Positions 1 through 7,872 of a DNA stretch of 7,872 nt are shown in pieces (position 1 is the first letter of the stretch; each line of letters begins with the position of its first letter). The notes under the pieces were generated by a model, which was not told the origin of the DNA, ran no database searches, and saw only the letters and a list, made by a program, of their open reading frames with translations. The translations under genes were made by a program, and so were the position numbers. The DNA comes from an uncultured Collinsella sp. (GTDB taxonomy: Bacteria > Actinomycetota > Coriobacteriia > Coriobacteriales > Coriobacteriaceae). Location of the stretch: NCBI GenBank assembly GCA_934655755.1, contig CAKUHA010000034.1, positions 1 through 7,872 on the forward strand. The letters run 5' to 3'.

Positions 1-61
1 TGTTTGGACACATTTCCGCAGCTCATATGCGCCCGCAACCGCCGGTTGTCAAAAATCTCAC

Positions 62-67
62 TAGAAT
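62..67 (+). promoter_or_regulatory. Candidate -10 box (TAGAAT) for the HTH-DUF4097 operon
   Basis: TAGAAT matches the TATAAT consensus at five of six positions and is the best -10-like hexamer in the 171 bases ahead of the regulator gene. Transcription would begin near 74-75, giving a leader of about 98 bases before the HTH start codon. The -35 position (about 39-44) is CCGCCG and does not resemble TTGACA, so the call rests on the -10 alone. Confidence 0.3.
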
Positions 68-161
68 AGGTGGCATGTTTTTGGCGGTGGCGGATAGATT
101 TTTAACTGTGCAAGGCGCCTTAAGAACAAAAGCGGTCCGGCGGCACGGCTGGCAAAAGCAT

Positions 162-167
162 AGGAGG
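162..167 (+). promoter_or_regulatory. Strong ribosome binding site for the HTH gene
   Basis: AGGAGG is a full Shine-Dalgarno match four bases before the ATG at 172. It fixes the start of the regulator gene and argues against any in-frame alternative start. Confidence 0.85.
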
Positions 168-171
168 AACC

Positions 172-894
172 ATGAACGTTGAAACTGCGCAGCGGCTCGC
201 CGATCTTCGCCGCAGCAAGGGCTTTAGCCAAGAAGGGCTGGCGCGAAAGCTGGGCCTGTCGCGCCAGGCGGTCAGTAAATGGGAGCGCGCGGAGAGCTCT
301 CCCGATACCGAGAATCTCATCTCGCTCGCCAAGCTTTATGGCGTGAGCCTGGACGAGCTGCTCAATCCGAGCGACGAGATCGAGGACGATATCGAGTTTG
401 AGAATGAGGACCGCGCCCGTCAGCGCGAGGCCGAGGCGGCAGAGCGCGCCCGCACCCATGAGGCGGCGGCACGCGCCACCGAGGCGGCAACGCAGGCAAG
501 TGACGCGGCAGCCAAGGCGGCGCAGGCGGCAAGCTGGAGTGCGCAGGCCGCCAATGCCGCGACGGCGCAGGTAACGGGCGGCGGCGCGGCTGCCCCGACT
601 CCGGTGAAGGGACCGTTCCAGTCGTTCCCGTATTGGGCCGTGTGCTGGCTGCTGTTCTTTTTGCTGATGTTCCTGGTTGGTGCCAGCCCCTTTCCCGCAC
701 TGATCTTCTTTACGATTCCCATCTATCACTGGGTGGCGCGTGCGCTCGATGGCGATTGGGCGCGCGGGGATATCCAGGTTGGTCCGGCACTGGTGGCAGG
801 TAGGACCCAGGTGCAGGACGTTTCCGCTGCGGTTGATGCCGACGCGGCTGCTGCGACTACTGCTGAGTCGATTGCCGAAGAAGGTGATGAATGA
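172..894 (+). CDS. Membrane-anchored XRE-family helix-turn-helix transcriptional regulator
   Basis: This 240-residue protein is a probable one-component regulator that binds DNA from the membrane. Residues about 7-62 form an XRE/Cro-type HTH domain: the 'GFSQEGLARKLGLSRQAVSKWE' type segment at 17-38 contains the turn and the recognition helix, and 'TENLISLAKLYGVSLDELL' follows at 46-64. An acidic patch (68-80) comes next, then an Ala/Glu/Arg-rich, probably helical linker (about 82-136). Two hydrophobic segments (about 153-170 and 174-190, joined by a Pro-containing turn) form a likely membrane hairpin, and an Ala/Glu-rich tail ends the protein. The start is set by AGGAGG at 162-167. The stop codon overlaps the start of the next gene (ATGA), so the two are translationally coupled. 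The target is unknown; by context it probably controls its own operon in response to an envelope signal. The HTH assignment is firm, the membrane topology likely, and the signal inferred. Confidence 0.9.
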   Translation: MNVETAQRLADLRRSKGFSQEGLARKLGLSRQAVSKWERAESSPDTENLISLAKLYGVSLDELLNPSDEIEDDIEFENEDRARQREAEAAERARTHEAAARATEAATQASDAAAKAAQAASWSAQAANAATAQVTGGGAAAPTPVKGPFQSFPYWAVCWLLFFLLMFLVGASPFPALIFFTIPIYHWVARALDGDWARGDIQVGPALVAGRTQVQDVSAAVDADAAAATTAESIAEEGDE

Positions 895-1790
895 TGAAGC
901 TCTCGCATGAATCCAAGGTGCGCCTGGGTGTTGGCATCGGGGCGTTTGTACTGATTGTCGGGCTTGTTTTTGGCACTTCGCGGACTTTGATTCATTTTGA
1001 TGGCCCGTGGAGCCTTAGCGATCTTACATCCCGCTTGTCTGGTCTGGATGATGAGGTTGACGAGGACGACTCCTTGGATGACAGTAACTTTTCCGTCCGG
1101 CCTCAGAAGCTTTCGAGCGTGACCTTTGATGCTGACTCATTCACATCGCTTGACTTGGATGTGACGTCGGGCACGGTCGAGGTCAAGCACGTTTCCGGCG
1201 GGCAGGTGCGTGTTATCGAAAACGGTCGAGTTGCAAAAGGAATCGCTGCCTTTGATGCGGCGACTCGGAACTTGGCTGAGGTGAAGGGCTCTACGCTTAA
1301 GATCAGCCAATTCGATTGCGATGACGAACGCGCAATCGACCGTACGGTCACCATTGAGTTGCCGCGTGAGGTTGCGGACAATCTGGTAGGCATTACCGCC
1401 AACGTGGGGTCGGGCGACCTGACGGTCACGGGCATTGCATGCCATGACCTGAATCTAACGCTGGATTCGGGCGACGTTGAGTTTACGGGCACCGTAACTG
1501 ACGCCCTGAATGCCGAGATTGGCTCGGGCGATGCAACGTTTGAGCTGTATCAGGCTCCCGCGAATTCGATGGATGTTACCGTGGGCTCGGGCGATGTGGA
1601 GATGACGGTTCCGAATTCTACGGGATTTAAAGCGAGCCTCACCGTGGGCAGCGGCGATTTTGAGAGCGATTTCTTTCCGCTTGGCTACGATGGCGAGACG
1701 GTTTGGAATCATGAGTTCGACAACGGTGATAAGTCCGCCACGTATCGTTTTGAGGTCGGGTCGGGCGATATGTCGTTTGATCCGGCGTGA
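891..1790 (+). CDS. Membrane-anchored DUF4097-like beta-repeat protein (putative adhesin family)
   Basis: This 299-residue protein has an N-terminal hydrophobic anchor (about 11-29), a very acidic linker (52-65) and a C-terminal beta-rich region built from short repeats. The recurring (V/I/L)-(G/D)-S-G-D element occurs at residues 172-176, 191-195, 210-214, 231-235, 252-256 and 289-293. Spacing is 19, 19, 21 and 21 residues and then 37, about two repeats; a divergent VTSGT sits at 91-95. This is the layout of DUF4097/DUF4098 'putative adhesin' domains, which are predicted to form a right-handed beta-solenoid outside the membrane. The start at 891 overlaps the upstream stop and has AAGAAGG at 878-884 as ribosome binding site; the second ATG at 894 is an equally possible start. 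Genes of this family often sit beside a small regulator, which suggests envelope stress or surface sensing, but the function is not established. One hand-counted 60-base sample (1081-1140) is 50% GC, against 73% in a sample of elp3 (2581-2640). Confidence 0.85.
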   Translation: MMKLSHESKVRLGVGIGAFVLIVGLVFGTSRTLIHFDGPWSLSDLTSRLSGLDDEVDEDDSLDDSNFSVRPQKLSSVTFDADSFTSLDLDVTSGTVEVKHVSGGQVRVIENGRVAKGIAAFDAATRNLAEVKGSTLKISQFDCDDERAIDRTVTIELPREVADNLVGITANVGSGDLTVTGIACHDLNLTLDSGDVEFTGTVTDALNAEIGSGDATFELYQAPANSMDVTVGSGDVEMTVPNSTGFKASLTVGSGDFESDFFPLGYDGETVWNHEFDNGDKSATYRFEVGSGDMSFDPA

Positions 1791-1797
1791 CGGACGG

Positions 1798-1814
1798 TTA
1801 TCGAAGGCCGATAA
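1798..1814. repeat. Short perfect inverted repeat after the DUF4097 gene
   Basis: TTATCG (1798-1803) and CGATAA (1809-1814) are perfect inverted copies around a five-base loop. The stem can be lengthened by ACGG (1794-1797) pairing with CCGT (1821-1824) across a bulge at 1815-1820. No T-run follows, so it is not a terminator by itself. It may stabilise the mRNA 3' end or be a protein-binding site. Confidence 0.35.
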
Positions 1815-1836
1815 ATATAGCCGTGCTCTTTGATGG

Positions 1837-1876
1837 AGGCGCCGGGGCCGTGGTCGGCTCCGGCGCCTTTGCCTTT
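1837..1876 (+). terminator. Rho-independent terminator of the HTH-DUF4097 operon
   Basis: A long hairpin has its 5' arm at 1837-1850 and 3' arm at 1855-1868, enclosing the tetraloop TGGT. All 14 pairs are Watson-Crick except one G-T wobble (1846/1859), and the stem is very GC-rich (AGGCGCCGG against CCGGCGCCT in the outer part). It is followed by a broken T-tract, TTTGCCTTT (1868-1876). It lies 47 bases after the DUF4097 stop and ends about 12 bases before the elp3 start codon. Confidence 0.8.
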
Positions 1877-1881
1877 ACAAT
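1876..1881 (+). promoter_or_regulatory. Candidate -10 box of a leaderless elp3 promoter
   Basis: TACAAT matches TATAAT at five of six positions and ends six bases before the elp3 ATG, so transcription would be expected to start at or next to the A of the start codon. This is the geometry of leaderless genes, which are common in Actinobacteria. The only purine-rich stretch before the ATG is GGGGG (1882-1886), one base away and too close to act as a normal ribosome binding site. The -35 region falls inside the terminator hairpin and has no consensus match. Confidence 0.5.
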
Positions 1882-1887
1882 GGGGGC

Positions 1888-3792
1888 ATGGAACAGATTA
1901 TCTTGAACATACTCGAGGCTCTGCGTTGCGGTGAGACCGTGGATGACAAGGCGCTCGTCAAACTGATACATGCCGAGGCGCGCCGCGAGGGCGCAGATAA
2001 GCGCGACCTGGCCAAGCGCCGTCTGCTGCCGTTTTACCAGCGGGTAAAACGTGAGGAGCCGGCCCGGTGGGCTGCGTGGAATGTCGATGCCGAGCTGGAG
2101 CGGCAACTGCTGCAGGTGCTGAGGATGAAGCCGCGTCGCACGGCTTCGGGCGTGGCGACCATTACCGTCATCACCAAGCCCTGGCCATGCTCGGGGGATT
2201 GCCTGTTTTGCCCCAACGACCTGCGCATGCCCAAAAGCTATTTGCATGCCGAGCCGGCGTGTGCCCGTGCAGAGCAAAACTGCTTCGATCCATATCTGCA
2301 GGTGAGCGCCCGTTTGACGGCGCTTTCGCAGATGGGTCATGCGACCGATAAGATCGAGCTCATTGTGCTTGGCGGTACCTGGAGCGACTATCCGGAGGGC
2401 TATCAGACATGGTTTATGTCGGAGCTCTTCCGCGCGCTCAACGACGATGCCGTCGCCGGCGTGGCGGCAAACCCCATGTTGGCGCGTCCGGGCATCAGTC
2501 GTGCCGAGGCGGGGCGCCTGCTCGATGACGCTCCCGCCGATGCCCTGCCGCCGGTGGTGGCGGAGCGCCGCGAGCGCTATCGGGCGGCGGGCATTGCGAC
2601 CGACGAACGTGAGCTCGCTGCCGGCGTTGCCGACGAGCAGGAGCGTGTGGATGCTGCCGTGGGCGGCTATAACCGCGCGGTGCGTCGTCTGTACGGACCC
2701 GGTACGCCATGGGGCGAGGTTGCCGAGTGGCAGACGGCAACGATGGAGGAGCTTGAGCGTCAGCAGCGCATCAACGAGACGGCGAAGCATCGTGTGGTGG
2801 GGCTCGTTATCGAGACGCGCCCCGATGCCGTGACGCCGCAGGCCCTCACGCTCATCCGCCGCCTGGGCTGCACCAAGATTCAGATGGGTATCCAGAGTCT
2901 CGACCAGCACCTGCTCGATATCAACGAGCGTCGCATTTCGGTGGCTCAGATCGAGCGGGCGTTTTCGCTTGCACGCCTGTTTTGCTTTAAGATCCACGCG
3001 CATTTTATGCTCAACTTGCTGGGCGCTACGCCCGAGGGGGACAAGCGCGACTACGAGCGCTTTATGACCGAAGGGGCCTTTATGCCCGACGAGGTCAAGG
3101 TCTACCCGTGTGCGCTCATCGAGGGCTCGCGTCTGGTGGGCTGCTATGAGCGCGGCGAGTGGCGCCCCTATACCGAGGAAGAGCTGCTCGATGTGCTGGC
3201 CGACGACATCGTGGTGACGCCGGCGTTCTGTCGTATCAGCCGCATGATCCGCGACTTTAGCTCCGACGACATTATGGTGGGCAACAAGAAGCCCAACCTG
3301 CGTCAGCTCGTCGAGAACCGCTTGGCTGCTCGGGGTGACGGTGCGACGGTGCGCGAGATTCGCTATCGCGAGATCAGCACGGCGGGTGCCGACTTGGCCG
3401 AGCTGTCCCTTGATGAGGTCGCGTACGAGACGCCGGTGACGCACGAACGTTTTTTGCAGTGGGTGACGCCCGAAGGCAAGATCGCCGGCTTTTTGCGCCT
3501 GTCGCTGCCCGATCGCGCGTTTGTTGCCGCGCATGCGGACGAGTTGCCGACGTTGCCGGACGAGGCGATGATTCGCGAGGTGCACGTCTATGGCATGGCG
3601 GCGCGTGTGGGCGATCAGGGCCAGGCGGCTCAGCATCACGGTCTGGGGCGTTCGCTCGTGGAGCGTGCGTGCCAGATTGCTCGGGATGCGGGCTATACGC
3701 GCATCAACGTGATTAGCGCGATTGGCACGCGCGAGTACTACCGTCACCTGGGTTTTTACGACCATGGCCTCTATCTGCAAAAGGAGCTCTAG
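1888..3792 (+). CDS. elp3: Elp3: radical SAM / GNAT tRNA uridine-34 carboxymethyl-modification enzyme
   Basis: This 634-residue protein is a stand-alone bacterial Elp3, which uses S-adenosylmethionine and acetyl-CoA to build the carboxymethyl group on wobble uridine 34 of tRNAs in the cytoplasm. Residues about 1-85 form the Lys/Arg-rich N-terminal tRNA-binding part. The radical SAM core has cysteines C101, C105 and C108 for the 4Fe-4S cluster, the family block 'IELIVLGGTWSDYP' (156-169) and 'VGLVIETRPD' (304-313), then 'IQMGIQSLDQ' (331-340). The C-terminal GNAT domain (about 490-634) shows 'VHVYG' (565-569), an acetyl-CoA loop 'QHHGLGRSL' (582-590) and 'GTREYYRHLGFYDHGLYL' (613-630), diagnostic of Elp3. 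Residues about 187-298 are an extra Arg/Glu/Ala-rich segment between two core blocks. The cluster motif is CX3CX2C, tighter than the CX9CX2C of eukaryotic Elp3. The gene is followed with no gap by the methyltransferase-like gene, so the two form one operon. The family call is very secure; activity is inferred. Confidence 0.95.
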   Translation: MEQIILNILEALRCGETVDDKALVKLIHAEARREGADKRDLAKRRLLPFYQRVKREEPARWAAWNVDAELERQLLQVLRMKPRRTASGVATITVITKPWPCSGDCLFCPNDLRMPKSYLHAEPACARAEQNCFDPYLQVSARLTALSQMGHATDKIELIVLGGTWSDYPEGYQTWFMSELFRALNDDAVAGVAANPMLARPGISRAEAGRLLDDAPADALPPVVAERRERYRAAGIATDERELAAGVADEQERVDAAVGGYNRAVRRLYGPGTPWGEVAEWQTATMEELERQQRINETAKHRVVGLVIETRPDAVTPQALTLIRRLGCTKIQMGIQSLDQHLLDINERRISVAQIERAFSLARLFCFKIHAHFMLNLLGATPEGDKRDYERFMTEGAFMPDEVKVYPCALIEGSRLVGCYERGEWRPYTEEELLDVLADDIVVTPAFCRISRMIRDFSSDDIMVGNKKPNLRQLVENRLAARGDGATVREIRYREISTAGADLAELSLDEVAYETPVTHERFLQWVTPEGKIAGFLRLSLPDRAFVAAHADELPTLPDEAMIREVHVYGMAARVGDQGQAAQHHGLGRSLVERACQIARDAGYTRINVISAIGTREYYRHLGFYDHGLYLQKEL

Positions 3793-4668
3793 ATGAACAG
3801 GCCGAGTATTTCCGCTGGCGTTGTTGCTGGCGTTGCCCTGGGAGCTGCAGCGCTGGGTGCGGCTGCCGTCGCTGTTCGTGCTGCCTGTCTGCAGGTTGCG
3901 CGGACCCGCAACGGGCTGGCGCGTGTGAAGCGCGTGCACGACGAGAATGGTGACGAGGTCCGTGTGCTGGTGCAGGGCGGCGTCTACCAAAGTGCGAGCT
4001 ACGTTGGCGAGCGTTGGGCGGAGCCGGTCTTTGCGTACTATCGCGCATTTGACGATGTGTTTGAGGCTGAGGACGCAATGCGTGATGCTTGCGGGCACGG
4101 TATCGACCGTATGCTTATGCTGGGCGGGGGCGGATTTGCCTATCCCAAGTTTGCGCTGATGTCGCATGAGGGCTTGCGCATGGACGTCATTGAGTATGAT
4201 GCCGAGATTACGCGTCTGGCGCGTCGCTGGTTCTACTTGGACGAGCTGGAACGTACGGTTGGCGATCGCTTGCGGGTGATTACCGCCGAGGCGCGCTCGT
4301 ACCTGGGTGTGACGAGCGTGGGGCATCGTCGCTACGACGTCGTTGTGAGCGACTGCTTTGGCGGCGCCGAGCCCGTACGCGAGCTGGCGACCGTTGAGGC
4401 GCTCCGATTGGTGCGGGGTAGCTTGAACCCGGGCGGCATCTACGTTGCCAATATCGTGAGTGCGAACGAGGGGAGCGATGTAACGTTCCTGCGCGATTGC
4501 GCCGCAACGGTGTTCGAGGTATTCGACCACGCTTGGGTAATTCCCTGTGGCGATACAGAGTTCGGCGGCGAGGAAAACTACCTGCTCATCGCCAGCGACG
4601 GTGACTACACCTTCATCGAAGCCGTGCCTTTCGACGCCGACTTCCTCGGTGCCGCCCTTCACGACTAG
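3793..4668 (+). CDS. Spermidine synthase-like SAM-fold protein with N-terminal membrane anchor
   Basis: This 291-residue protein starts with an Ala/Gly/Val-rich hydrophobic segment (about 7-31), a likely membrane anchor or uncleaved signal. A Rossmann-type SAM-binding domain of the spermidine/spermine synthase superfamily follows. Visible elements are 'GGVYQSASY' (62-70), matching the N-terminal strand region of synthases; the nucleotide-binding loop 'LMLGGGGFAYPKF' (108-120); the motif II acidic residue in 'DVIEYD' (131-136); 'YDVVVSDCFGG' (181-191); and 'LNPGGIYVANIVS' (211-223). The usual GGGDG is GGGGF here, and the catalytic second Asp of the D-S/T-x-D motif is Gly190, so polyamine synthesis is doubtful. 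It may methylate or bind a different partner. The start ATG directly follows the elp3 stop, with AAGGAG at 3781-3786, so it is co-transcribed with elp3. Fold and family are confident; substrate unknown. Confidence 0.85.
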   Translation: MNRPSISAGVVAGVALGAAALGAAAVAVRAACLQVARTRNGLARVKRVHDENGDEVRVLVQGGVYQSASYVGERWAEPVFAYYRAFDDVFEAEDAMRDACGHGIDRMLMLGGGGFAYPKFALMSHEGLRMDVIEYDAEITRLARRWFYLDELERTVGDRLRVITAEARSYLGVTSVGHRRYDVVVSDCFGGAEPVRELATVEALRLVRGSLNPGGIYVANIVSANEGSDVTFLRDCAATVFEVFDHAWVIPCGDTEFGGEENYLLIASDGDYTFIEAVPFDADFLGAALHD

Positions 4669-4678
4669 CTCATTGAGC

Positions 4679-4701
4679 CCCGTCCCAAAAGGACTGGTTT
4701 T
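4679..4701 (+). terminator. Short intrinsic terminator of the elp3 operon
   Basis: CCCGTCC (4679-4685) pairs with GGACTGG (4691-4697) around the loop CAAAA. Six of seven pairs match, with one mismatch, and TTTT (4698-4701) follows. It fills most of the 31 bases between the two convergent genes and overlaps the stop codon of the helicase. On the - strand the hairpin also forms but has no T-run after it. Confidence 0.5.
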
Positions 4702-7144
4702 ATGCGTGGTTGCGCCAGCTGAGGACGCGTTGCTTCATGCCTTGGATGTCAAGGACGCCTTCGGCAAAGCCTTTGCGAACGAGTTCCTCGGGAACGTACT
4801 CGTCGTAACGATCGAAGTAGGGCACCTCGCCGGGATAGACGAGCTCGATAGGATCGAAGTCTTTCTCGGCCTCGGCAGCGAGAACCTCAAAGAACGTCTC
4901 CTCGTCAGCCTTCATCTTAAACTGCATAAAGTACGGGCGTGACGGGTCGAGCCCGCGAAGGCCCAGCTCTGCGGCGCATTTAATTTTGAGCATACGCTCG
5001 AGTGCCAAGAAGGCATAGCTGCCCAGCCAGGGGAAGAGCACCCAGGTGTCGCCGCCCAGGTTGATGAGCGGTTTAGTTCCCGCGCCCGAAATCTCGGCGG
5101 TATGACGAGCCTGCGTAAGGCGTGCTCGTGCGTTGCCCATAAGGTACGGATATGCCGCGTGCTCGTTGAGCGCTTGGCGCATGCGCTCGAGCACATGCGT
5201 ATTTATGTCTCCGGGGCAGTCGCCAAAGTATGCTGGCACACGGCCCTTGACCTGTGTGGCAAAGACGGTGTGACGCTTCCAGTCCACTTCCTCGACGATC
5301 CAGCAATGGCCTGCGATGGCGATGCGTTCGCCAGGTGGTGGCGGATTGACGATCGTGCCCAGCTCGGCCGATTCGCTGCGAACGGTAAACTCCTCGTTCT
5401 CCTGGAACACGGCGTAGAACTTAAAGTTGTTGATGATGCGCTCGCCCGCGAGGCCCACGATGAGCCCGCCGCCCTCGGTGACCTGGATGTGGTCGATCTT
5501 AATGAGGTGGCGCAGCAGCATGCGGTAGTCATCGGCGGAGACGCGGTGGAAATAGCTGAGCGTGAGCACGCGCTGGGCAAGCTCGGCCGGTGTGAGCTCG
5601 CCGGTGCTGGCGAGCGTCGACATGGTCTGGTGATAGAGCAAGCTGTAGGGGAGTCGATCGAGCTCGGGCGGCTCGACCCACTTTTCCTCGCGATAGAGTT
5701 GTACGAGCGCGATGCCCTGTAGAAGCTTCCAGGGAATGGTCTCGGGCATCATCGTGCGTGGCTCGGGCTCTTCCTCGCGCATGACAAACCACATCTCGGG
5801 CGGAAGATCGCGGCGGCCTGTACGCCCCATGCGCTGCAAAAAGGAGCTGACGGTAAACGGTGCATCGATCTGGAACGCGCGCTCCAGGCGACCGATATCA
5901 ATGCCGAGTTCCAACGTGGAGGTGGTGACGGTTGTCTGCGCCTGTTCCCCGTCGCGCATGAGCTCCTCGGCGGTCTCGCGCAGCGATGCCGAGAGGTTGC
6001 CGTGGTGGATCAGGAAGCGGTCGGGCTCGTGCCGGTTCTCACAGTAGCTGCGCAGCATGGAGCACACGGCCTCGGCCTCCTCGCGCGAGTTGGCAAAGAC
6101 CAGGCACTTGCGGCCGCGGGTATGTTCAAAGATATAGCCCATGCCGGGATCGGCGTTGTCGGGCGCGGTATCGGTGGGGTTGAGCAGCGCCTGCTCGGTC
6201 GCTCGCGGGATGTCGACTTCGCCCTCGGGGGCTGAGGAAGTGCGATGGTCCTTGGGGACGGCCTTGCCCCGTGCCCGCTCGCGACGTTGGCGGCGTTCCT
6301 CCTGCGTGAGCTGTCCGCTGTGGCGCATGTCTTGTGTGCCGGCGGGCAGTGCCGTGGGCGTTGCTGCTTCGATGCGCTCGCACGCAAGCACTTCGGCCTC
6401 TTGAGGACCCATGCCCTCAAATCCTCGCTGCTGCGCCTGGGGACCCGAGTTGTAGAAGTGCTCCATGGAGATACGCCACACGCGGCGCGGCTCCTCAAAG
6501 CGGGGGATGACGCAGTCGCGTCCTGTTCCCTGTGAGAGGAAGGCACCCGTGCGCTCGGGGTCCCCGATGGTGGCCGAAAGGCCGATGCGGCGGGGCTGCA
6601 CGCCTGCCATGCGCGAAAGGCGCTCGATAAGACAGAGCGTCTGGCCGCCACGGTCGCCGCGCATGAGCGAGTGGACCTCGTCGATAACGACATAGCGCAG
6701 GTCGCAAAACATGCGCGGGATGGCCATGTGCTTATGGATCAGAAGCGCCTCGAGTGATTCAGGCGTAATCTGCAGGATACCGCTCGGCTTTTTGATGAGT
6801 TTGGCCTTATGCGACTGTGAGACATCGCCGTGCCAGTGCCAGACAGGGATATCGGCCTCTTCGCAGAGGTCGTTGAGGCGCACAAACTGATCGTTGATGA
6901 GCGCTTTGAGAGGGCCAATGTAGAGGGCGCCCACGCTCGCGGTCGGGTTCTCCCAAAACTCGGTCAGGATGGGAAAGAAGGCCGCCTCGGTTTTGCCGGA
7001 TGCCGTGGATGCTGTCAGGAGCACATTGTCTTGCGTGTTAAAGATTGCATCTGCTGCCGCAACCTGGATAGAGCGCAGGCTTTCCCAATCGTGGGAGTAG
7101 ATGAAGTCTTGGATAAACGGAGCATATAGGTCAAAAGCGTTCAC
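4700..7144 (-). CDS. Lhr-like DEAD/DEAH-box helicase of a Shango-type (SngC/BrxHI-like) defence system
   Basis: This 814-residue superfamily 2 helicase is a presumed DNA-acting ATPase of a phage-defence module. RecA domain 1 carries a Q-motif-like Q27, motif I 'TASTASGKTEA' (44-54, Lys51), motif Ia 'IGPLKALINDQ' (76-86), Ib 'ITPESLEALL' (126-135), motif II DEVH (155-158) and III 'LSATIGDP' (189-196). RecA domain 2 has 'VFANSREEAE' (349-358), motif V 'TSTLELGIDIG' (408-418) and the arginine-finger motif VI 'QRMGRTGRR' (437-445). All catalytic motifs are intact. A charged, probably disordered insert (about 232-335) separates the two RecA domains. Winged-helix and beta-rich accessory regions of the Lhr type seem to follow to about 660. 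The GTG start at 7144 is chosen because GAGAGGAGG sits four bases upstream; an in-frame ATG at 7207 would add 21 residues but has no ribosome binding site. It lies 116 bases after the BrxD-like ATPase gene on the same strand. The helicase call is secure; the system assignment rests on that neighbour. Confidence 0.92.
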   Translation of the reverse strand: MNAFDLYAPFIQDFIYSHDWESLRSIQVAAADAIFNTQDNVLLTASTASGKTEAAFFPILTEFWENPTASVGALYIGPLKALINDQFVRLNDLCEEADIPVWHWHGDVSQSHKAKLIKKPSGILQITPESLEALLIHKHMAIPRMFCDLRYVVIDEVHSLMRGDRGGQTLCLIERLSRMAGVQPRRIGLSATIGDPERTGAFLSQGTGRDCVIPRFEEPRRVWRISMEHFYNSGPQAQQRGFEGMGPQEAEVLACERIEAATPTALPAGTQDMRHSGQLTQEERRQRRERARGKAVPKDHRTSSAPEGEVDIPRATEQALLNPTDTAPDNADPGMGYIFEHTRGRKCLVFANSREEAEAVCSMLRSYCENRHEPDRFLIHHGNLSASLRETAEELMRDGEQAQTTVTTSTLELGIDIGRLERAFQIDAPFTVSSFLQRMGRTGRRDLPPEMWFVMREEEPEPRTMMPETIPWKLLQGIALVQLYREEKWVEPPELDRLPYSLLYHQTMSTLASTGELTPAELAQRVLTLSYFHRVSADDYRMLLRHLIKIDHIQVTEGGGLIVGLAGERIINNFKFYAVFQENEEFTVRSESAELGTIVNPPPPGERIAIAGHCWIVEEVDWKRHTVFATQVKGRVPAYFGDCPGDINTHVLERMRQALNEHAAYPYLMGNARARLTQARHTAEISGAGTKPLINLGGDTWVLFPWLGSYAFLALERMLKIKCAAELGLRGLDPSRPYFMQFKMKADEETFFEVLAAEAEKDFDPIELVYPGEVPYFDRYDEYVPEELVRKGFAEGVLDIQGMKQRVLSWRNHA

Positions 7145-7148
7145 GGGG

Positions 7149-7157
7149 CCTCCTCTC
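7149..7157 (-). promoter_or_regulatory. Ribosome binding site that selects the GTG start of the helicase
   Basis: On the - strand GAGAGGAGG runs from 7157 to 7149 and is followed by CCCC and GTG (7144-7142). It contains a full AGGAGG. The in-frame ATG at 7207-7205 has no comparable sequence, so translation from GTG is preferred. Confidence 0.75.
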
Positions 7158-7221
7158 AACAACGGGCTGATCAACGTAGCGGGCAACGGCGCGATATCTT
7201 GCAACATCGGCGTTTACCCAG

Positions 7222-7260
7222 ATAAAACCTGCCAAAATAAACCTGTCCCTTTTTGGTAGG
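7222..7260 (-). terminator. Inverted repeat with T-run after the ATPase gene (possible attenuator)
   Basis: Directly after the ATPase stop codon (TAA, 7263-7261) the - strand reads CCTACCAAAA (7260-7251), a 13-base loop, and TTTTGGCAGG (7237-7228). The two arms pair at nine of ten positions. TTTTAT follows at 7227-7222. This has the form of a weak intrinsic terminator: the loop-side half of the stem is A-T only, so partial read-through into the helicase gene is plausible. No convincing promoter for the helicase was found in the remaining gap; the best is GGGACA (7248-7243) 17 bases before TTTATC, a poor match. Confidence 0.35.
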
Positions 7261-7872
7261 TTAGATGGTGAACTCGGCGAAGTTGCGGCCGCCGTCTGCG
7301 GTGCCGGTGTCGTTTGTTGCGGCTGCTGGTGCCAGCGCGTCGCCGCCGACGCTTTGCAGCAACTCGGCCACATCGGCATCGGGGTTTTGACACAGGATGT
7401 CAAGCAGCTCGATAAAGTCGCGAATGACCTCACGGGGCGTCAGGTGCGTGTCGGCTCCCACGCGGCCAAACTCAATCTTGAGGAAGTCAACCAAGTCGTT
7501 CTCGGTAAGCGTAGGCGTCCAGCCAAAGTAGCCGGCATGGATTTGCATGAGCTTTTCGATCAAGACCAACAACTCCTCGTAGGTGAGCGGCTGCAGGCGG
7601 ATGATGGGCGCGAGCATGTCTTTGAGGTCTTCGCGCGCAAAACGGCCCTGGGCGAGGCGGCTACGCAGGGCCTCGTAGGAAAACACGCCGCGGCGGCGGT
7701 CCTCGATAGAGGTCGGCGTGCCGCCCATAATCATGCCCAAGTACTGCGCCTTGCCTTGCAGCGTGTCGTTGTACATGGTCAGGATCTTCTCGTAGTTGTA
7801 CTGGCGCGTGATGGCGTTGGGAATCTTGTACAGGTTTACAAGTTCGTCGATGAGCACCAGCATGCCCTTGTA
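7261..7872 (-). CDS. BrxD/DUF2791-like ATPase (SngB-like), C-terminal part, cut by the window edge
   Basis: The last 204 residues of a P-loop ATPase are visible; the frame is open to the edge, and its apparent Met at 7863 is internal. The fragment opens with a Walker B strand ending in Asp-Glu, 'MLVLIDELVNLYKI' (fragment residues 4-17), so Walker A and the N-terminal half lie beyond 7872. Next come the family segments 'YLGMIMGGTPTSIED' (about 44-58), 'GVFSYEALRSRL' (about 62-73), 'IRLQPLTYEELLVLIEKL' (about 92-109) and 'LTPREVIRDFIELLDIL' (about 146-162). A Gly/Ala/Thr-rich linker and an 'FAEFTI' end close the protein. These are hallmarks of the BrxD-like DUF2791 family, known from type 2 BREX and from TerB-ATPase-helicase systems. 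It precedes the helicase on the same strand, and the two likely act together. Family is confident; exact system is inferred. Confidence 0.88.
   Translation of the reverse strand, partial: YKGMLVLIDELVNLYKIPNAITRQYNYEKILTMYNDTLQGKAQYLGMIMGGTPTSIEDRRRGVFSYEALRSRLAQGRFAREDLKDMLAPIIRLQPLTYEELLVLIEKLMQIHAGYFGWTPTLTENDLVDFLKIEFGRVGADTHLTPREVIRDFIELLDILCQNPDADVAELLQSVGGDALAPAAATNDTGTADGGRNFAEFTI

Follow-up and report, generated by a model that had tools for sequence, protein, structure and literature searches.

A stretch of 7,872 nucleotides from an uncultured Collinsella sp. (GenBank assembly GCA_934655755.1, contig CAKUHA010000034.1, positions 1 to 7,872; hereafter the window) carries at its right edge a helicase gene, sngC, and the truncated end of an ATPase gene, sngB, both assignable to Shango, a three-gene system whose third member, sngA, encodes a TerB-domain protein. 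A set of this type is kept in the 43 Collinsella genomes that we compared, and we consider it probable that it constitutes an inherited machine for anti-phage defence or DNA surveillance and not a portion of a mobile island. Because the helicase is found in every one of these genomes, the set is likely inherited and permanent, not a passing mobile island. It is likely a phage defence. Shango itself was named by Johnson et al. (2023; PMC10250203), who located it in the core defence hotspots of Pseudomonas aeruginosa and described a 10-100-fold effect on phage plating; an anti-phage activity in Escherichia coli is reported in a work that they cite.

The helicase gene is intact. Its minus-strand open reading frame (ORF) is uninterrupted from the mechanical start of the ORF list, an ATG at 7207, to position 4700, which would give 835 amino acids. 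A GTG at 7144 seems the likelier start, because the Shine-Dalgarno-like GAGAGGAGG sits upstream of it at 7149..7157 on the same strand; the gene would then occupy 4700..7144 and encode 814 amino acids. Homologues share with SngC the start region VNAFDRYAPF/SAFDRYAPF. The product is a superfamily 2 (SF2) Lhr-like DEAD/DEAH (DEVH) helicase that Pfam resolves into DEAD and Helicase_C. The PADLOC SngC model matches residues 23-826 with 915 bits (model positions 4-715 of 720), versus 406 bits for the best BrxHI model. Each of the seven SF2 motifs that we read is intact. At motifs I to III, 43 of the 44 alignment rows have letters, those of the window and of 42 genomes, the remaining row being a fragment from a contig end; all 43 retain the G-K-T of motif I (Walker A, TASTASGKTEA, 6983..7015), the D-E-V-H of motif II (the DEVH box, VVIDEVHSL, 6665..6691) and the S-A-T of motif III (LSATIGD, 6560..6580), while motif VI (QRMGRTGRR, 5810..5836) is invariant in 44 of 44 rows; all four lie on the minus strand. 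The sequence-only reading of this DNA, which had announced an intact Lhr-like helicase, was thus correct on this point.

The SF2 core and its motifs are common to SngC and to Lhr-type and other SF2 helicases, DpdJ and DruE included, but the NCBIfam large-helicase models score the window protein far under their cut-off (best 196 bits versus 850). The best matches in a PDB sequence search are the DNA helicases 5v9x and 7lhl, which we take to be of the Lhr type. Between motifs III and IV (approximately 6100-6550) the Collinsella SngC has a long, charged and variable linker, and its 814 amino acids compare with 726 and 733 in two plasmid-borne SngC. In phage records SngC found four matches, all weak or partial, one of them at 80% coverage and 34% identity. 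The Hachiman paper (PMC12278908) places SngC, BrxHI, DruE and DpdJ in a possible clade of anti-phage helicases.

Upstream of the helicase, on the same strand and cut by the window's edge, a BrxD/DUF2791-like ATPase had been predicted, and the interval 7261..7872 does encode the last 203 of the approximately 434 residues of a BrxC/D-family ATPase (ORF, Pfam and PADLOC evidence). This fragment matches Pfam BrxC_BrxD with 215 bits (profile positions 238-412 of 414) and PADLOC SngB with 253 bits, versus 34.8 for BrxD; the NCBIfam BrxD equivalog gives the partial protein 36.7 bits against a cut-off of 350. Scores at the level of 915 bits for SngC and 253 for SngB exclude chance, and the profile searches that the sequence-only reading had proposed for the two proteins have identified both of them. 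It had also placed the ATPase's Walker A motif and a TerB gene past position 7872; both are found there in relatives that are 96-97% identical at SngC, the window itself containing neither. The closest relatives are Collinsella aerofaciens-group chromosomes; in locus L001, one of them, the full SngB has 434 amino acids and scores 564 bits as SngB versus 132 as BrxD. Its Walker A, GRYGAGKS, occupies residues 67-74, and the G-K-S is present in 41 of 41 genome rows.

The ATPase ends in a short conserved peptide. Its form in the window, FAEFTI, encoded by 7264..7281 on the minus strand, is a predicted docking peptide (tail alignment and structure-model confidence). When the tails of 52 of the 58 SngB (the near-identical aerofaciens L002-L006 and L008 being dropped) were put together with those of two plasmid SngB, 51 of the 54 ended in [FY]xEFx[IL]. 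In L001, residues 409-434 have a predicted local distance difference test score (pLDDT) below 50, which would place the peptide on a disordered tether. A LASFKL-like ending terminates 116 of 120 SngB relatives of the proteobacterial type; the SngB form of the peptide occurs in none of the 120 closest relatives of one BrxD from type 2 BREX (bacteriophage exclusion). Many of these last 120 (P0241-P0360) have a recurrent IELDLP-like C-terminus of their own, perhaps another docking peptide. Among PDB sequences SngB found only a designed repeat protein, with E 5.5e-9 across 29 residues, and some weaker matches, none of which we take as homology. Alignment A1 comprised 43 of the 50 SngA and alignment A2 30 of the 58 SngB.

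With the TerB gene lying outside the window, sngA is known from the relatives. In L001 the gene order is DUF554, a 586-amino-acid TerB_N/TerB_C protein, the 434-amino-acid ATPase and the helicase; the TerB protein of this locus, the one for which the domains were displayed, scores 109 bits for TerB_N, 61 for TerB_C and 262 for PADLOC SngA, and the helicase of L001 scores 915 for SngC. All seven closest relatives (L001-L006 and L008) have sngA-sngB-sngC in this order on one strand, and because SngA precedes sngB in them the window very probably belongs to a set complete with all three genes and not to BREX. The layout resembles that of a single operon, sngA and sngB overlapping in L001 and the sngB and sngC matches of the aerofaciens group ending 72-75 bases apart. 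More generally, wherever the SngB and TerB_N matches share a contig (39 genomes), SngA and SngB are next to each other, in 39 of 39. The assignment to the Shango family made from the letters of the window is hence sustained by what precedes the helicase in its relatives.

The set has much in common with the described Shango of P. aeruginosa PA14 and E. coli: the same three PADLOC families, the same domains (TerB_N/TerB_C, BrxC_BrxD and DEAD/Helicase_C) and, in the aerofaciens group, the same order and strand. A TerB domain is among the features given for Shango elsewhere (PMC10952713). Plasmid trios that served as a yardstick scored 340/581/908 bits (SngA/SngB/SngC, Roseobacter) and 360/682/820 bits (Paenibacillus). 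In SngA the C-terminus is a predicted winged helix. Sequence comparison with the PDB gave no match for SngA (best E 0.7), nor did Foldseek against the PDB at E <= 0.001. A variable stretch of SngA, alignment columns 450-550, where nonsynonymous variation (pN) is 0.12-0.17 versus 0.005-0.064 elsewhere, was considered as a sensor patch and rejected; since it coincides with an Ala/Pro/Glu-rich linker, most of whose residues 438-509 have pLDDT below 50, its variability is more simply explained by relaxed constraint. The genes that precede sngA in L001 are the DUF554 gene, a gene for a 476-amino-acid protein without Pfam match and two further genes that are presumably GlcD-like and EtfB-like, none with a defence-like look.

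Homologues of this ATPase and this helicase also occur, as BrxD and BrxHI, in type 2 BREX. A BREX origin has in its favor that both BREX profiles match the Collinsella proteins and that a Streptomyces BREX-2 locus has the same ATPase-then-helicase order. Nevertheless, for both proteins the Sng models are well ahead by the scores given above, the C-terminal ending of SngB is another one, and the relatives have a TerB gene upstream and no PglZ alongside. PglZ is present in only 13 of the 43 Collinsella genomes, always on a different contig from sngC or more than 0.8 Mb distant. No BREX gene was seen beside sngB and sngC among the neighbor proteins scanned, a part of the ORFs in the 22-kb stretches and without a search for pglX. 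We regard a BREX-2 locus as an explanation with next to no credibility, and the original preference for a stand-alone system holds.

The distribution of the genes was followed in a panel of 43 genomes belonging to the same genus as L001, each species of the collection being represented once. SngC is present in 43 of 43 and SngB in 41; in the two SngB-negative genomes (G031 and G037) the adjoining gene pieces stop, by their coordinates, at contig ends. SngA was found in all 43 by tblastn on the fetched stretches (four partial) and TerB_N by Pfam in 42. Among controls in the same genomes rpoB was detected in 41, PglZ in 13 and Cas1 in 12. A second genus, that of Thermophilibacter gallinarum (G084, the genome of locus L070), has SngC in 30 of 31 genomes and SngB in 29 of 31. 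As the SngC model also hits 6 of 14 control genomes at E <= 1e-60, a bare match is no proof of Shango and the cut-off was set at E <= 1e-97. With it, an order-level draw of 247 genomes gave 131 with a strong SngC, among them all 43 Collinsella and 88 of the 204 others; in 18 further genomes the match was weaker (E 1e-60 to 1e-76) and is taken to reflect other large helicases. From the counts of 43/43, 30/31 and 88/204 it follows that Shango is fixed in some genera and patchy across the order.

The locus also keeps its place. A gene for a spermidine-synthase-like protein (SpdSyn) lies near sngC in 41 of the 43 Collinsella loci that were fetched, and elp3 does so in 40. The exceptions comprise a contig of 9 kb, the end of another contig and, in G032, a stretch of 18 kb where both genes are missing. 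In a quick-method tree of 81 SngC proteins Collinsella forms one starred clade with Limicola, except for L017, which groups with the neighboring Thermophilibacter/Olsenella side (support of that neighborhood 92, not starred). Nineteen Bacillota rows make up one group, and the order holds more than one SngC lineage, since further coriobacterial rows with compact operons sit nearer to the Bacillota than to Collinsella. A spermidine-synthase-like gene accompanies Shango in Collinsella and also in the Thermophilibacter/Olsenella clade, on different sides (L024, L033, L040, L043, L046, L052, L070 and L074); none was found in the nine loci of the compact lineage that were displayed. A functional link or a shared ancestral neighborhood is possible.

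For 40 of the 44 tree rows SngC, SngB and RpoB were all available, and the pruned comparisons comprised 20 and 18 taxa. With 18 taxa, SngC and SngB each have 7 of 15 splits in common with RpoB, Elp3 has 6 and SpdSyn 5; with 20 taxa, 7 and 9 of 17 splits were shared. The agreement of SngC and SngB with RpoB is moderate and no worse than that of the flanking Elp3 and SpdSyn. In the aerofaciens group (21-22 rows) the ratio of nonsynonymous to synonymous divergence (dN/dS) amounts to 0.042 in SngB, 0.046 in SngC, 0.066 in Elp3, 0.086 in SpdSyn, 0.087 in DUF554, 0.017 in RpoB and 0.134 in SngA, a count that retained the SngA row of G036, which is a fragment from the edge of a contig and has a stop at its residue 12. 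Purifying selection on SngB and SngC exceeds that on elp3. The Collinsella sngC locus is apparently vertically inherited.

These data bear directly on the proposal, contained in the sequence-only reading, that a defence locus has its left border in the window. Nine neighbor proteins, a subset of the ORFs of the stretch, gave generic partial matches only when compared with PADLOC: at best 41 bits for a helix-turn-helix protein, 25 and 17 for methyltransferase-like proteins and 77 for a more distant second SF2 helicase. The proposed border finds no support in this result or in the genus-wide presence, conserved place and apparently vertical inheritance of the locus. In favor of a recently arrived mobile island, Shango is reported to occur in defence hotspots (PMC10250203) and to be over-represented in prophages (PMC13064858). 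Its arrival by way of mobile elements (PMC12607529) and its presence in E. coli genomic islands (PMC11096173) have been described as well. It has also been recorded in rumen genomes (PMC13356809), and restriction-modification genes prefer to co-localize with it outside defence islands (PMC10924106). The family is, in addition, common on plasmids, with SngB-like matches in 690 of 72,556 records. Four of five plasmid trios (Roseobacter, E. coli, Mesorhizobium and Azospirillum) are situated beside mobile or defence genes; the Roseobacter trio adjoins SAVED, ThiF, Mov34 and nucleotidyltransferase genes, which we assume to be components of a cyclic-oligonucleotide-based anti-phage signaling system (CBASS), whereas the Paenibacillus trio has ordinary neighbors. 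Against such an arrival in Collinsella stand the presence of SngC in 43 of 43 genomes, the conserved flanks, a G+C content that resembles the surroundings, an agreement with the RpoB tree similar to that of the flanking genes and nine scanned neighbors without specific defence match. A recent mobile island is thus very improbable. The usual carriage of Shango in defence islands or mobile elements was not found in Collinsella, where the set differs from those described in being chromosomal and genus-wide.

The three genes do not always remain together. Both sngB and sngC were matched in 41 genomes; by their coordinates, the two lie less than 700 bases apart in 24, are separated by 1.6-9.7 kb on one strand in 13 and are on different contigs in 4. 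In two of these last (G020 and G021) the distance exceeds 500 kb if assembly and binning are right, and sngC is still beside the SpdSyn and Elp3 genes and a further neighbor, presumably TrmB-like, with sngAB elsewhere; for the remaining two, contig breaks could explain the separation. In all, 15 Collinsella genomes have sngB and sngC apart and retain both. Of the 13 junctions that are opened, 9 have an [FeFe]-hydrogenase-like gene between sngB and sngC, mostly with an ABC-transporter-like gene; such genes separate sngB and sngC at 5296-9760 of L007 (C. tanakaei) and likewise in several other Collinsella.

This retention, together with a presence in the genus as wide as that of rpoB, a constraint on SngB and SngC tighter than on elp3 and nine scanned neighbors without a specific defence match, would also be compatible with a housekeeping complex that maintains the cell's own chromosome during replication or repair, phage defence being a by-product or confined to mobile relatives. 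We judge this unlikely, although it is the rival to be taken most seriously: 116 of the 247 genomes of the order have no strong SngC (some may be incomplete), so that relatives seemingly manage without it, four of the five plasmid trios adjoin mobile or defence genes, and in other hosts members of this family of trios act against phages (PMC10250203).

If the inherited anti-phage or DNA-surveillance machine is the correct interpretation, the following mode of action may be envisaged. SngA would recognize an abnormal state of the DNA, for example phage replication intermediates, its predicted winged helix binding the DNA. The C-terminal peptide of SngB, on its disordered tether, is predicted to dock a partner, SngC or SngA, and SngB would spend ATP to load or activate the helicase through this tail. 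SngC would then strip or unwind the DNA and phage replication would stall. Blocking is a likelier effect than cutting, because Pfam gave no nuclease domain in SngA, SngB or SngC. The Shango literature searched, in its available portions, contained no mechanism.

Next to sngC, on the plus strand, are the spermidine-synthase-like gene (3793-4668), elp3 (1888-3792), a gene for a DUF4097/LiaG-like product (891-1790) and one for a helix-turn-helix regulator whose C-terminal part includes a hydrophobic stretch (172-894), all identified by Pfam/NCBIfam scans. The last two overlap and could be an envelope-stress pair (172-1790). On the minus strand a frame of 954 amino acids (1798-4662) covers elp3 and its spermidine-synthase-like neighbor in antisense; it is likely an artefact of G+C-rich coding sequence. 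The sngB-sngC spacer (7145..7260, minus strand), which corresponds to the junction widened by kilobases in many other Collinsella, bears the greater part of a short dispersed repeat that occupies 7211-7264 and contains GGACAGGTTTATTTT. An exact 15-mer of the repeat is present in 37 of 191 fetched stretches (some of which overlap), one copy each, and at the sngB-sngC junction wherever coordinates were compared. A megablast of the whole window against plasmids retrieved one record, in which the short repeat alone matched: NZ_OY725717.1 of C. aerofaciens, with 3 matches, the best at 94.4% identity. This record of 899,693 bases belongs to the plasmid collection; because contig G012:C6, of equal size, bears rpoB, the record probably consists of chromosomal sequence that was wrongly labelled as plasmid.

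The proteins themselves are known; what appears to be new, as far as the literature searched extends, is their fixed, inherited and partly scattered state and the SngB peptide. The portions of the Shango papers that we consulted contain no description of a genus-wide core Shango. More tentatively still, and with considerable doubt, one may suppose that in Collinsella and its relatives Shango is an ancestral core complex of genome surveillance, whose scattered parts act in trans and assemble by means of the SngB peptide, the mobile Shango systems being its offshoots. Gain and loss are what one expects of defence systems; the Collinsella set is universal in our panel even where its genes are not adjacent. 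Detection tools that require adjacency would probably miss such scattered sets. The conserved peptide of SngB offers a small, testable handle on the assembly of the three proteins, and the Collinsella set opens a direct way to ask if, besides fighting phage, Shango protects the DNA of the cell that carries it.

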